In this document: positions 3,001 through 22,723 of the stretch, piece after piece
How the letters are laid out: each line of letters begins with the position of its first letter
Numbering within the stretch: the first letter of the stretch is position 1
From: Planctomycetota bacterium
GTDB lineage: Bacteria; Planctomycetota; Phycisphaerae; UBA1845
DNA: 33,654 nt
Assembly: GCA_024278695.1 (NCBI GenBank)
Contig: JAJRSR010000042.1
Span: 1-33,654, forward strand
Reading direction: 5' to 3'
Notes under the pieces: generated by a model
The model's input: only the letters and a program-made list of their open reading frames with translations
Database searches by the model: none
What the model was told of the DNA's origin: nothing
Program-made: the position numbers and the translations under genes

Positions 3001-5078
3001 ACCAAACAGGGCTGTACGCAAGATCCAGCACAAGTACCGCCCGGGCAATCTCCCGGCACCGTACACGGCATGAACTCATTGGCACCGCCGGCGCAGAACT
3101 GGCAGTCCGCATCACCGTTGGCAAAGCAATCACCATCGATGTTGAGGCTGTCATCGGAGCAGGTTGCACAGAACTGACCGATTCCACGGAAGGAACCGTT
3201 GTTATTCTCGCAAACCCACGGCAGCACGTTCGGCGTACACGTTCCCGACGCCAAATCACAACAAGCACCGCTTGGGTCTACGGTTTTCGCACCGGTCAGC
3301 TCAAACGAAAGCACGTTGGGGGCATCACTACAAGTACCGCCACCATCAACGCAATCCGTGTTCGTGGGGTTGCACCACAGGCCATCGTCAGTACCGCCAG
3401 CACAAACCTGAAGCGAAGAAGCCGCAGCGTTACCGTTCTGCCAGATCACCGAGGGGTTGTTAACACCAATATCCACCGTGTCCGTGGCCCGAATGAAGAT
3501 CTGACCGTTAGGCGCGAAAGCGGTAGCCACGCGCCATACGACAAAACCGTTCGGCGGAATTGTGATCGGCGGATCGAAGATCAGCGTCCGCACCGCAATA
3601 CCGGAACCAGACGCGAAGAACGTATCCTCGATGAAATCGCCATTGGCATCATAAAACTCGATGGACATGCGCTCTTCGGCAACCGTCCGAACACCACCGA
3701 CAAAGACGATCTCGTCAACGGAGACGAAGGAACCGTTCGAGAAGGTGTAGTCATCGCCAAGATCAGCGATAGCACCACACGCGGCGCTGGACACCGGACC
3801 GACGACAAACGTTGTTTCATCAAGCGGGGCTACGCCACCGCTGTACTTCGGACACTCTCCACACTCAGCTTGTGGCTGGCTGAACAGAATCGCCGAAGGC
3901 GACCACACACCACCGGTAGCCTGGCAGTTCTCATCGATCTCCTTGGAGCAGATGAACTCATCAGGCGTAATGTCCGGCTTGCAACAACGACCGATACCAC
4001 AGGAAGGTCCGTTGTAGCCGGCCTCTTCCGGGGTCAAGCACGTTCGGGCTCCAGGGCAATCGGTATCAGCGGAGCACCGCAATGGGCCAAAATCGGGGCT
4101 GACGCCGCCGGAGCAAGACCGCTCGCCGCAACGACCGCCGGCACCACAAGGGTTGCTGCCGGGAACGCAAAGGCCCGTACCCACGTCACACGTTTCAGCA
4201 CCATCGCACTGAATACCGTTGTCGCACATTTCATCCGGCGTCTGACAGGCACCGTTCGGGCAGTCCACATCGTCCGTACACAGCGTGTCAGGGTTGTCAC
4301 TGGCCTCGTTGCACGTTCGCTCGGTGCAAGGGGTGGCGCATGTGAACAGGTCCTCATTACAAACCGCCACATCACAAACACCGTCACGACAGGTGGAGCT
4401 GTCCACGCAGACATCGCCATGATCGATACCACCGCGGCAAGCACCGGTACATGGAATCGTATCATCGATGTCGGTGGGGTTACCGGTACCAAAACCAGGA
4501 AGCTCGCATACGCCGGCCTGGCAGGTCTCGATGCCGTTACAGAAAACGCCATCCGAGCAAGCGACCGAACCGCCGCCATCCGCGACAGCCTCATGATTGC
4601 AAGTACCGCTACCGAGCGGATCGCCTGCAAAAATCAAGCAACGGTCATTCGTGCAAGGATCGCAGTCGTCGCAATCAATGTCGAACGAACACGCGCCGTT
4701 ACCGGCAATGCCGTTACGGCTCATCGCGTTCGGACGCCACGGGCCATTCAACTTGCCCTCGGCACGAAGGCGCGAAGCCTCATCGTCCAGGTAGTTGACG
4801 ACAATCGGGGACGCTACCGGTGTGGTAGCGTTCCGGGTCAAGCGACCGGAACGATACACGGCCAACCCGTCGGCCATGGCCACGTCGCCGGAAGCCTCAG
4901 ACGTCGCCATCGATAGCGTACGTCCACCATTCGAATTTGTCGGCGAAGCGCCTTCCAAATTCACCGTAAGAGACAAACAAAGCACCAGGACGCCGGCACC
5001 AGCGCACGACATCCAAGGCTTAAACCGTCTTCCAGTATCAATCACCTCAGTACCTCCCATCCGCAGCTTACGTATCAT
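1..5078 (-). CDS. Giant exported Cys-rich surface protein with dockerin-like tail (3' end outside window)
   Basis: Reading leftward from an ATG at 5078 the frame stays open for 1692 codons to the window edge, with no stop. GGAGAG lies about 10 bases before the start. Residues about 23-45 form a signal peptide after a basic stretch (GRRFKPW). Then come Cys/Asp-rich repeats (about 115-400, pattern CxDGxxCNGxExCxxGxC), a beta-rich domain (about 423-550), GACC-type Cys clusters (about 690-735), a pre-peptidase-C-like domain (about 740-900), more Cys repeats, a second beta domain (about 1133-1306), another pre-peptidase-C-like domain (about 1372-1514, LWFTYIA...CYLIRIGGFGG), and a terminal module beginning QRYLQIAAP and ending FIDINGFVKKFLGDP, which resembles half of a dockerin. 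No catalytic motif was recognised. An adhesion or scaffold role is inferred. The frame was spot-checked at three distant points. The gene is divergent from the 5804 gene across an AT-rich gap. Confidence 0.85.
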   Translation of the reverse strand, partial: MIRKLRMGGTEVIDTGRRFKPWMSCAGAGVLVLCLSLTVNLEGASPTNSNGGRTLSMATSEASGDVAMADGLAVYRSGRLTRNATTPVASPIVVNYLDDEASRLRAEGKLNGPWRPNAMSRNGIAGNGACSFDIDCDDCDPCTNDRCLIFAGDPLGSGTCNHEAVADGGGSVACSDGVFCNGIETCQAGVCELPGFGTGNPTDIDDTIPCTGACRGGIDHGDVCVDSSTCRDGVCDVAVCNEDLFTCATPCTERTCNEASDNPDTLCTDDVDCPNGACQTPDEMCDNGIQCDGAETCDVGTGLCVPGSNPCGAGGRCGERSCSGGVSPDFGPLRCSADTDCPGARTCLTPEEAGYNGPSCGIGRCCKPDITPDEFICSKEIDENCQATGGVWSPSAILFSQPQAECGECPKYSGGVAPLDETTFVVGPVSSAACGAIADLGDDYTFSNGSFVSVDEIVFVGGVRTVAEERMSIEFYDANGDFIEDTFFASGSGIAVRTLIFDPPITIPPNGFVVWRVATAFAPNGQIFIRATDTVDIGVNNPSVIWQNGNAAASSLQVCAGGTDDGLWCNPTNTDCVDGGGTCSDAPNVLSFELTGAKTVDPSGACCDLASGTCTPNVLPWVCENNNGSFRGIGQFCATCSDDSLNIDGDCFANGDADCQFCAGGANEFMPCTVPGDCPGGTCAGSCVQPCLVGACCAGDGTCSDGITETDCTTGGGTFVGHGTDCDPDCCPQPAVTGADECANVTPINLAIPTSGVCQGGPNDGLPCLHAGECAGELCARTVRATTTGDNTGASGPDSCSAVQFDPAASDVENVDLGWWEAFSIDDCAFVRVDMCCSVPLHAPQWVVMWNACPCQDGQGFVNSINPNNPTLPANNRGAPFCDDDNLWWQYGPLRAGTYYQPVYSALAGAHGPYQMHFTAEACPDAACCYSSCSETGVVACPTGTECGVGESCLNGFCVLPCQVDGDCTGTCEPTCALTNVLECGDVNGNFLAPPFRDTGVTFCDNDPVTGTCATGSCCLGPGDCADSTSPDSFVAISKSDCDGVGGVYVGGMFCNGGVCVAPGDNVDQSCASDADCGGGLDTCQARPGQDPAQPSPCPVCDILDNAHCMLQTGFGFLSDDCVGDCVDDPTNGHLYVAEDFVAEESGNLMTGCVAGSWLDQGPGGLPEGSDDRTPERLFVTIYDDANGVPGTPVMPRQRVTIVASGIEFFNGSRAVWRYQWSLPTPVPLLQGRTYWIEAFMQTDGLDDNGNPAGLASVDWFWSGADPLDTRGPQGNSYSMLNTGDLYDVRDVNPGNDHAFCLDIAISVPVEPARPCCLCPSANSATAGGVAGVVDPACVDAIGADECINDLQGDWRFEVNECLGFTCPNTNGPANDECLDAIAVGNGSIPWNNLCASDSPAPLDQVACGGIETDPFARDLWFTYIATDTDDWSFSLCDFEGEIDTVLALYSDGTGTCPCPSDASLQLGNCSDDGCVFVGSGSEITRPVVAGTCYLIRIGGFGGEQGRGLLTVGPGTPVVTSPEPPVNTGVDGGTHGQRYLQIAAPNSTENEVIRVTPLNIPGLAGGASVLYLGAPFAAVDPNQADPSVTFTASQLGCDPVVADFGAFADIAVYGPEITPSDVVDVAQYSVQRANASCPNLTTDETCWSVPPLVISMGHYGDVLPPYLVDAGSTEPSFIDINGFVKKFLGDPT

Positions 5079-19492: not shown

Positions 19493-19525
19493 CGAGGCGG
19501 CTCCCGCCAAACGGGAACCGCCTCG
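19493..19525. terminator. Strong hairpin between two minus-strand genes
   Basis: CGAGGCGG (19493-19500) pairs with CCGCCTCG (19518-19525), and after one C/A mismatch TCCCG pairs with CGGGA, leaving the 5-nt loop CCAAA. It sits 62 bases after the stop of the acid-free protein gene and before the HAD-like gene. There is no clear T-run, so it may terminate weakly or protect the 3' end of an abundant mRNA. Confidence 0.5.
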
Positions 19526-19586: not shown

Positions 19587-19988
19587 TTACTTGGGGAACG
19601 TGAAACCGCGACCCTTGCAGGTCGGGCTCGTGGCGACCATGAAGTTACCGCTCTTCGTGCGGCAGACGGCCTTGATGCTGGTCTTGCCGAACTTCTTGCA
19701 GAGGATGGTCTTACAGGAAGCCGGGCTGGCCGTCTTCGTGCTGAAGTTGCAGTTGGCGGTCTTCGCCCACTTGGCCACTTGGTTGCAGCTAACGGTCTGG
19801 ACGATCGCGCCCTTGTTGATCCAATTCGCGAAGCTGTTCAGCGTCGAGGGCTTGGGACGGGTGAAGTTACCGGTCGTCGCCTTGGCCTGGTTGCAGAGGG
19901 TCTTAAACGAGCTGATCTTGTACTGGAACGCCTTGCAGACATTCGTGTACGTCGCCTTACCGCTGGTGGTCTTGCCATTCGTAGCCAT
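19587..19988 (-). CDS. Basic Cys/Lys/Thr-rich protein without acidic residues
   Basis: ATG 19988 follows GGAGAG by about 8 bases. The 133-aa product contains no Asp and no Glu, with 19 Lys, 3 Arg and 8 Cys, giving a charge near +22. All 19 Lys codons are AAG, Ile is always ATC and Phe nearly always TTC, which indicates high expression. There is no signal peptide or membrane segment. Two segments, LCNQAKATTGNF and SCNQVAKWAKTANCNF, look like divergent repeats. The composition suggests binding of nucleic acid or another polyanion, perhaps with metal- or disulfide-linked Cys; this is inference, and I do not recognise the family. It has a 450-base upstream region and stands as a single transcription unit. 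Confidence 0.8.
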   Translation of the reverse strand: MATNGKTTSGKATYTNVCKAFQYKISSFKTLCNQAKATTGNFTRPKPSTLNSFANWINKGAIVQTVSCNQVAKWAKTANCNFSTKTASPASCKTILCKKFGKTSIKAVCRTKSGNFMVATSPTCKGRGFTFPK

Positions 19989-20438
19989 TTGTGTCTCTCC
20001 AAAGAATAAACAGACTGTCCTAAAATTCGTTCGTCTTTGCCGGCCACTACACCGACGCCGAGTACATCGGACCGCGTTGAAGCGTTCTTGAGAAAACCAG
20101 TGGCTCCGTGTACGCCGACTTTAGAAGTTCCGAGGGAAAATTCGGACTAATTGCAAGGCTTACGCCCGGTTCGCGTCTGTTACTTTTCAGACTCTGAATG
20201 ACACAAAAACCACCGTTTTCATGCAATTATCGTTGATTCGGGGCGTTTCGGCTTGAACCCATCAGCCCCGAATATGTAACGATCACGCTGGATCACCGAA
20301 GCTCAAGACCCATCGCAACAAACGGTGAAAATAATTCAAAAAAAACAGAAAAACATCGCGTCGAGACAATACATCACTGCGCGGGAGCGGCGATTGATAC
20401 GACAACCGCGCCGGAAAACAACCCGGCGACACGACGAA
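19989..20438. other. Long AT-rich region upstream of the acid-free protein gene
   Basis: The 450 bases between the sigma-factor stop and the next minus-strand gene hold no supported ORF. They contain a perfect 9-bp inverted repeat ATTCGGGGC/GCCCCGAAT (20236-20244 with 20265-20273), an A-rich run at 20338-20354 that becomes a T-run in leftward transcripts, and a small hairpin CGCCGG/CCGGCG (20409-20428) just after the sigma-factor stop. The first two may be an operator and a terminator, respectively. No clear promoter for the downstream gene was identified. Confidence 0.45.
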
Positions 20439-21014
20439 CTAATCCGTATCAAGTAGAGACGCATACTCACGAAGCAACCGCATACCCTCGAAGATTCGTG
20501 ACTTGACGACACCCTCTGTGAGATCAAGAACTTCAGCGATTTCGGCCCGCGATAGGTCTTCCACATAGCGTAACCGCAGCACCTCACTTTGCTCCGGCGA
20601 TAACGCCTCGACCAGTTTCGATAGAGACGAGCGCATTTCGGACTTGACCAACCTTGTCAGATGACCAGTGAGCACCTCTTGGACCTCCGATTCGGCCACA
20701 ATCGCCTGACCATCCACTCGATTGGCCCGCGCACGAAGCATATTCAGGCAAACGTTGCGGGCAATCTTATAGAGCCAGGGGCGGAAGAACGCCGGAACGC
20801 CGTCGGCCACGAGCACGCGATAGCAGATCTCCTGCCAGGCGTCCTCGGACTCCTCCGTCCGGCCCAAGTACCCCCAACAGAACCGCTGCACCGGTTCGCC
20901 ATACAACTCATTAAGCAGCGCCCCGGCTGCGGCATCGCCATTGCGAAGATGCTCGACCAGCGCGGCCGTTCGCTCATCGGACTCGGTTTGACCAGATCGG
21001 CTCACCTTCGGCAA
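20439..21014 (-). CDS. ECF-type sigma-70 family RNA polymerase sigma factor
   Basis: The 191-aa product has sigma region 2 (about 30-95: LNELYGEPVQRFCWGYLG, EDAWQEICYRVL, the RPWLYKIARNVCLNMLR helix) and region 4 (about 138-182: LSPEQSEVLRLRYVEDLS, then an HTH with EIAEVLDLTEGVVKSRIF). Regions 1 and 3 are absent, as in ECF sigma factors, which direct RNA polymerase to a small regulon. The longest start is TTG 21014, but GGAG is almost touching it; GTG 21005, 11 bases after GGAG, may be the real start. It lies 113 bases downstream of a kinase gene with an anti-sigma-like zinc motif, so the two probably form one regulatory pair. Confidence 0.9.
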   Translation of the reverse strand: MPKVSRSGQTESDERTAALVEHLRNGDAAAGALLNELYGEPVQRFCWGYLGRTEESEDAWQEICYRVLVADGVPAFFRPWLYKIARNVCLNMLRARANRVDGQAIVAESEVQEVLTGHLTRLVKSEMRSSLSKLVEALSPEQSEVLRLRYVEDLSRAEIAEVLDLTEGVVKSRIFEGMRLLREYASLLDTD

Positions 21015-21127: not shown

Positions 21128-22723
21128 TCATTGGGAGGGGAGGGAAGGTGCGCCGCTTCTCAATTCCTGTGACTCCGCGTCAGTTTCGTCCGTCGCGTCT
21201 TCGACTTCCCAAGATGCGTACAGATCGCGTAGTAACGCCGACGCCTCATCCAACTTGTCGCGCGGCACCTTCGACATGTTCCGGAATGCTTCGATCGCAT
21301 CCAGAAGCAGCGTCTCCGCCTCCGATTCCTCCGCCTCGGACCGTTTGTCACGGGAAAGCAGCACGCCAGCCAGCCCGACCATGGCCGGAGCCGATCGAGC
21401 ATCAAGCTCCTGACGCCGAAACGTGGCCAAGGCGCTTCGATAACGGCGCTCCGCCTCCCGTAAATTGCGTAGTCCGGGCTGTGCGGCCAACACCTCAGCG
21501 AGACGCCTCTCCGTCGCCGCCGTGGCCAGTGCTTGGATTCGGTCGGCGCGAGTCAAGGCCTTGGCCCGTTCGGCATCGAGGCTGCTGTAGGCGGCCGACG
21601 ACACCCCAACGAACGTGATCAGCGCCACCACAGAAACCGTCACCGCAACATGCCGTGTGATCCACTTCCTGAGTTGATAGGTCAAACTGGGCGGACGGGC
21701 GTGAATCGGCTCGTTCAAGAGGTACCGCGTAATATCGTCGGACAACGCGGCCGCCCCCTGGTAGCGGCGGCCTCGCTCCTTCTCCAAGGCCTTCATGGTG
21801 ATCGTTTCCAAGTCGCCGCGTAGGGAACGATCAAACTGGGACGGGCGTTCGGGGATCTCCTCGCAGATCACACGGACGGCCTCATGAATAGCCGCACGAG
21901 ACACGGCCGTCGGCAGGTGGTCCGTGAGCAGTTCGTAGAGGATAACGCCTAACGAATAAACATCGCTACGCACGTCGATTTCATCGGCGGCCCCCCGTGC
22001 CTCTTCCGGGCTCATGTAGGGCAGCGTTCCCATCAGACGCCCCACTTCGTTGAGCGTCGTCATGGGTGCTCCATCATTATCGGTAATTCGAGCAAGGCCG
22101 AAATCCAGCACCTTCGGCGCGCCGTCGGCATCAACGAGGATATTTGAAGGCTTCAAGTCTCGATGGATCACACCGCGTTGGTGGGCGTAATGGATGGCCT
22201 CACACAACCGAACAAAAAGCTGCAAACGCTCCGACAACGGTGTCGCACGCCGCCGAACATAGCTTAACAGCGGCTCACCCTGAACCAATTCCATCACAAA
22301 GTAGGGCTGGCCGTCCGACGTGCGCCCGGCTTCATAGACCGCCGCAATGGAAGGATGCTTGAGCCGGCCAAGAATCTGAGCCTCGCGCTCAAACAGCTTC
22401 ACGCGGTAGCCGTCCACATTTCCACCGCTTCGGACCACCTTGATCGCGACACGCCGTTTGGTGGCCGGCTGCTCACCCTCATACACAATCCCCATACCGC
22501 CCTGCCCAAGCCTACGGTGAATCTCGTAGGGGCCGATTCGACCAGGCATAGGCAAATCGGGTGGTCGAGCCGCCTGAGACACGGCCGAGACACCAAGCCG
22601 AAAATCGGCCGCCCGGGCTTGGCAAAGCTCGCAATGGGCCAGATGTTCGGTCACATCCGGTGCCTCGCGATCCAGACCGCTCCAGAGCTCCTCTTCCGTC
22701 AGTTCACAGCTACGCACAGCCAT
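21128..22723 (-). CDS. Membrane Ser/Thr protein kinase with N-terminal anti-sigma-type zinc finger
   Basis: ATG 22723 follows GAGGCAGGA. The 531-aa protein starts with a short helical domain holding His27-x3-Cys31-x2-Cys34, the zinc pattern of anti-sigma (ZAS) domains. A complete Hanks-type kinase follows: G-loop GQGGMG (73-78), Lys95, Glu113, HRDLKPSN (187-194), DFG (207-209), SPE (238-240) and DVYSLGV (254-260). One membrane segment (about 359-379) separates it from a C-terminal helical, coiled-coil/TPR-like region with many Glu, Arg and Ala. By topology the zinc finger and kinase lie in the cytoplasm and the tail outside. The sigma factor gene is directly downstream, so this protein probably binds or phosphorylates it in response to a signal; that link is inferred from context. 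Confidence 0.92.
   Translation of the reverse strand: MAVRSCELTEEELWSGLDREAPDVTEHLAHCELCQARAADFRLGVSAVSQAARPPDLPMPGRIGPYEIHRRLGQGGMGIVYEGEQPATKRRVAIKVVRSGGNVDGYRVKLFEREAQILGRLKHPSIAAVYEAGRTSDGQPYFVMELVQGEPLLSYVRRRATPLSERLQLFVRLCEAIHYAHQRGVIHRDLKPSNILVDADGAPKVLDFGLARITDNDGAPMTTLNEVGRLMGTLPYMSPEEARGAADEIDVRSDVYSLGVILYELLTDHLPTAVSRAAIHEAVRVICEEIPERPSQFDRSLRGDLETITMKALEKERGRRYQGAAALSDDITRYLLNEPIHARPPSLTYQLRKWITRHVAVTVSVVALITFVGVSSAAYSSLDAERAKALTRADRIQALATAATERRLAEVLAAQPGLRNLREAERRYRSALATFRRQELDARSAPAMVGLAGVLLSRDKRSEAEESEAETLLLDAIEAFRNMSKVPRDKLDEASALLRDLYASWEVEDATDETDAESQELRSGAPSLPSQ

Follow-up and report, generated by a model that had tools for sequence, protein, structure and literature searches.

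The window (the whole stretch of DNA analysed, 33,654 nucleotides) carries on its minus strand a gene that starts with ATG and encodes a basic protein entirely free of acidic residues, with 0 Asp, 0 Glu, 19 Lys, 3 Arg and 8 Cys. This gene, the parts of its predicted product, its upstream signals and the two neighbouring genes lying directly upstream are given in Table 1.

Table 1. Features of the acid-free gene and its upstream region (window positions)
Feature	Position	Strand	Basis or remark
Acid-free basic protein gene, 133 residues	CDS 19590-19988, stop codon 19587-19589	-	Open reading frame, composition, homologues
Conserved core, residues 40-133, alpha-beta-alpha-alpha-beta-beta	19590-19871	-	AlphaFold2 core model, conservation
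N-terminal 23-residue helix, residues 14-36	19881-19949	-	AlphaFold2 full-length model
Short N-terminal tail, residues 1-13	19950-19988	-	pLDDT <50 at residues 1-9, predicted disordered
Shine-Dalgarno sequence GGAGAG	19995-20000	-	Read from the sequence; kept in homologues
Promoter-like element TCAAG-N16-CCGATG	20065-20091	-	Own-genome site, ends 76 nt upstream of the ATG
ECF sigma factor gene, neighbour on the same strand	20439-21014	-	Pfam Sigma70_r2/r4; synteny
Ser/Thr protein kinase gene, neighbour on the same strand	21128-22723	-	Pfam Pkinase 9e-46; synteny

The residue counts agree exactly, on recount, with those of the preliminary description, as do the Lys codons, all AAG (19/19), and the Ile codons, all ATC (5/5). 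Among the 190 genes called in a 244-kb sample of the same genome, on which the own-genome codon and composition statistics are based, this gene is the only acid-free one; indeed, the Asp+Glu share averages 11.6% (sd 3.1%), and no other gene falls below 2.7%. AAG makes up 67% of the Lys codons of this sample, so that 19 out of 19 would arise by chance with p ~5e-4. In addition, the codon adaptation index (CAI) relative to ribosomal-protein usage reaches 0.766, the highest among the 172 non-ribosomal genes sampled and within the range of the ribosomal proteins (0.68-0.82), while the median of the other genes is 0.655. A log-ratio codon index places 91 genes above this one, and the claim of high expression is therefore based on CAI, on the use of AAG and on the share of C-ending codons. 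The same bias is found family-wide, since the family gene exceeds its neighbours in AAG usage in 26/26 loci and in the C-ending share of pyrimidine-ending codons in 25/26. Altogether, the codon signature expected of a highly expressed gene is borne out, and it suggests that the protein is probably abundant.

Around the gene, no RNA element was found with Rfam. A strong G+C-rich hairpin (cgaggcggctcccg/cgggaaccgcctcg, positions 19493-19525) lies directly downstream and has no T run, and open reading frames whose translations resemble ribosomal proteins L20 and L35 (16174-17342, minus strand) are located a few kb away.

Conservation, distribution and predicted structure

Homologues were found in 75 of the 114 genomes of the order. 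The gene occurs as a single copy in 48/51 genomes of its own family (f1) and in 25/27 of a second family (f4), suggesting a core chromosomal gene; it is also present in 1/1 genome of f7 and 1/3 of f2, and in 0/32 genomes of f3, f5, f6 and f8. In wider searches, the window's own genome was the sole match among 392 genomes drawn from the phylum (0 in the 391 others), and, apart from one weak match with a stop, a search of 397 genomes of the class returned members of f1 and f4 alone, on the understanding that both searches score few candidates per genome and that very distant relatives could escape them. The named records are metagenome-assembled genomes of Phycisphaerae, Phycisphaerales or Planctomycetota, and a planctomycete origin is supported. 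No relatives were found in the IMG/VR contigs or in the phage and plasmid collections searched (for the viral scans, a single distant member and an alignment of narrower breadth served as queries), and a phage or plasmid origin was therefore rejected.

The reading frame is held in the homologues of related genomes, with dN/dS values of 0.06-0.41 in the closest pairs, which indicates purifying selection. An opposite-strand frame, the alternative that the preliminary description had named as fatal to its claim, finds no support, since stops interrupt the antisense frames in 26 to 46 of the 46 homologues; the overlapping plus-strand open reading frames, which also have a low coding score, were thus rejected as genes. 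On these sequence comparisons, the gene is real and conserved.

Over 46 members of the family, Asp+Glu amounts to 1.2% and Lys+Arg to 16.7%, with a pI of 9.9-12.0. This basic composition is conserved among homologues that are 24-61% identical to the window protein, which suggests that it has been selected. Cys behaves otherwise: its number varies from 0 to 10 per member (two members have none), its positions shift, and neither Cys nor His is invariant at any position. Zinc sites among the Cys, for which the preliminary description had advised a structure prediction, are consequently unlikely, and a zinc or other metal site was rejected. The statement that no known family comes to mind was confirmed by searches of Pfam, NCBIfam, PDB sequences and PHROGs, none of which gave a family match above the curated cut-off for the window protein (best Pfam E 0.043, with weak scattered matches among the 46 members). 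The HU/IHF family (PF00216, Bac_DNA_binding) was not matched by the window protein, nor were the S1, Alba and ribosomal families. The family was therefore assigned to no known one, and no paper on such a protein was found in the literature searched with the terms tried.

AlphaFold2 models of the window protein (full-length, pLDDT 86 and pTM 0.77; core, pLDDT 90 and pTM 0.78) predict a long N-terminal helix followed by a helix-strand-helix-helix-strand-strand arrangement. Q34, G37, G60, L96, G101, I105, K106 and F129 are invariant or nearly so in the family, with G60, G101, K106 and F129 as the invariants of the core. Most members begin with a tail of 29-64 residues in which Gly, Ser, Thr and Arg, and also Asn, abound, and the window protein is among the few with a short one. 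A fold search against the PDB and viral structures returned nothing at E <0.001, and Foldseek with the core model gave no match better than E 1. The element order of the core is that of a winged helix-turn-helix, but Foldseek gave no significant match to solved winged-helix domains; the weak matches include several replication initiators (Rep) with TM of only ~0.29 and 8-9 A rmsd, which do not support a winged helix.

The upstream promoter-like element

Every one of the 46 upstream regions examined carries the pattern T(C/A)AA(G/C)-N16-CCGAT(A/G), or a close variant of it, with constant spacing and 49-92 bases before the ATG, compared with a similar pattern in 0.7% of shuffled upstream sequences. 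Members of f1 mostly carry TCAAG...CCGATG and those of f4 mostly TCAAC...CCGATA. The strict pattern has 10 matches in the window's own genome, most of them apparently within genes, and the other matches across the family genomes are scattered; the element thus seems close to private to the acid-free gene. A possible second target is a gene of the same genome, apparently for an FHA-domain protein by its sequence, with the same element lying 69 bases ahead of it (contig C81, positions 2854-2880).

The adjacency of the ECF sigma factor and kinase genes is kept in many relatives and is absent in genus g9 and in the f4 loci read. An ECF relative occurs in 40/114 genomes; it is missing in many that keep both the gene and the promoter, and present in some that have no acid-free gene. 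The neighbouring ECF factor was rejected as a general regulator for this reason, and the adjacency appears to be local synteny, the promoter-like element apparently not needing the ECF factor.

The element is similar to FliA (sigma28) promoters, which share the TCAAG/TAAAG and CCGAT(A/G) parts; as an example, the Escherichia coli flgKL site recognized by FliA is TCAAGTCCGGCGGGTCGCTGCCGATAAT, that is TCAAG-N15-CCGATAA (PMC4183435). It differs from FliA promoters in being nearly private to one gene. In our preferred reading of the protein, given below, the element would be read by an alternative sigma factor, probably of the FliA/WhiG type. The likeness to FliA sites also raises the reading that the protein is linked to motility, with late synthesis alongside the flagellum under the control of FliA/sigma28 and perhaps export by the flagellar apparatus by way of the disordered N-terminus. 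Such a role would agree with the occurrence of FliA-like sites upstream of the gene in all 46 regions and of FliA-type sigma factors and flagellins in nearly all genomes of the order. However, the spacer exceeds that of the E. coli sites by one base (16 against 15), and the element was absent from the flagellin upstream regions. Moreover, none of the 30 genomes of f5 and f8 has the acid-free gene, although 28 of these carry flagellins, and one genome (G001, 98% complete) keeps both gene and element while no flagellin and no FliA-type sigma factor was detected in it above the cut-off. Note that a genus mate (G032) does have a FliA-type sigma factor, so that G001 may have lost its own recently. 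Together, G001 and the flagellin upstream regions weaken the case for a strict flagellar regulon, and we regard a motility-linked function as very unlikely.

Two other signals were seen upstream in particular subclades. In one of them the -10-like element is overlapped by a possible operator, the inverted repeat CCGA...TCGG (positions 20052-20070 of the window, minus strand, and relatives; 11/32 loci versus 4% in shuffles), and GTCACG(T) occurs ~20 bases before the Shine-Dalgarno sequence in another (upstream regions L021, L024, L026-L030, L085 and L087).

Candidate roles of the protein

The near-total exclusion of acidic residues, kept despite the divergence of the family, points to a polyanion as ligand. 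Combined with the codon usage, the single-copy core status, the lack of an evident export signal and the basic flexible tail, it leads us to infer a nucleic-acid-binding protein. Our preferred reading, to which we give an even chance, is that of a new single-copy, probably abundant, acid-depleted basic family of some Phycisphaerae that would bind nucleic acid by charge in the manner of a nucleoid-associated protein. By composition, RNA or another polyanion is as good a candidate ligand as DNA, and DNA would be favoured over RNA solely through the likeness to bacterial nucleoid proteins.

Within the nucleoid-associated reading, the predicted compact core would present positive charge on a defined surface (conserved K59, K106 and K112 and the region of R44), with further, non-specific contacts made by the flexible Gly/Ser/Thr/Arg tail that most members carry. 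DNA-compacting proteins are commonly built from a compact core and a disordered basic tail; searches of Pfam, the PDB and the viral structures gave no match to DNA-binding families by homology or by fold. The protein may compact or coat DNA alongside HU. Indeed, HU genes were found in all 60 genomes tested, with or without the acid-free gene, so that a replacement of HU was rejected: there is no gap to fill, and the protein would work beside it. Like HU/IHF it is small and basic and occurs in the same genomes, but it is encoded by a separate gene and, in contrast to HU, is not present in all of them.

Nucleoid proteins restricted to particular lineages (chlamydial Hc1/Hc2, Lsr2, GapR and Lys-tailed HU) offer a further comparison: they are also small, basic, chromosomally encoded and probably abundant, and several have a disordered basic segment. 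Compared with them from sequence and predicted structure, as a putative DNA binder, the acid-free family has no detected relation in sequence or fold, its tail is rich in Gly/Ser/Thr/Arg instead of Lys-Ala repeats, and Asp and Glu are nearly absent. The chlamydial histone-like gene hctB (Hc2) is read by sigma28 (PMC12282069), which parallels the sigma28-like element of the family, no kinship being implied. If the dedicated and conserved promoter and an alternative sigma factor drive expression, synthesis of the protein may be confined to a single phase of the cell cycle. A fuller version of the nucleoid reading, namely a near-acid-free chromatin protein of new fold whose phase-specific synthesis from a dedicated sigma28-like promoter would serve to condense the Phycisphaerae nucleoid in parallel to sigma28-driven hctB in Chlamydia, seems unlikely to hold as a whole.

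Small, basic, acid-poor proteins with disordered tails are also typical of ribosomal and RNA-binding proteins, a type which the composition and tail of the family fit. The protein could therefore be an abundant RNA-binding or ribosome-associated factor (for hibernation, rRNA packing or as an RNA chaperone), the Gly-, Ser-, Thr- and Arg-rich region acting as an RGG/SR-like tail, and its ribosomal-protein-like codon usage is in line with this. Nevertheless, the failure to match S1, Alba and ribosomal families, the dedicated promoter outside ribosomal operons and a distribution largely limited to two families within one order, which would be unusual for a component of the ribosome, make this alternative somewhat unlikely. 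Charge alone cannot separate DNA from polyphosphate or acidic polysaccharide either, and a polyanion-binding structural or storage-associated protein (of the envelope, stalk, exopolysaccharide or polyphosphate granule) would suit the lineage-restricted distribution, which is common among such proteins. Against it, inspection of the family sequences by eye revealed no evident signal peptide or transmembrane stretch, and free Cys in varying numbers suggests the cytosol; an exported structural role, such as a spore- or crust-like one of the kind raised in the preliminary description, is mildly disfavoured by these sequence traits, and the structural or storage alternative appears quite unlikely overall.

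Whatever its role, this is a core and probably abundant protein common to two Phycisphaerae families in which no domain is annotated and for which the PDB and viral structures yielded no structural relative. Condensed nucleoids have been reported in planctomycetes, and a DNA-packing function would place an independent lineage of chromatin proteins beside them; an RNA-binding function would add an unknown part to planctomycete translation or RNA handling. The private promoter-like element makes the timing of expression testable. As a further observation, the window's own genome also encodes an HU homologue (L117, positions 3210-3635) with an extra Lys/Ala-rich stretch at its N-terminus and a high degree of codon adaptation.
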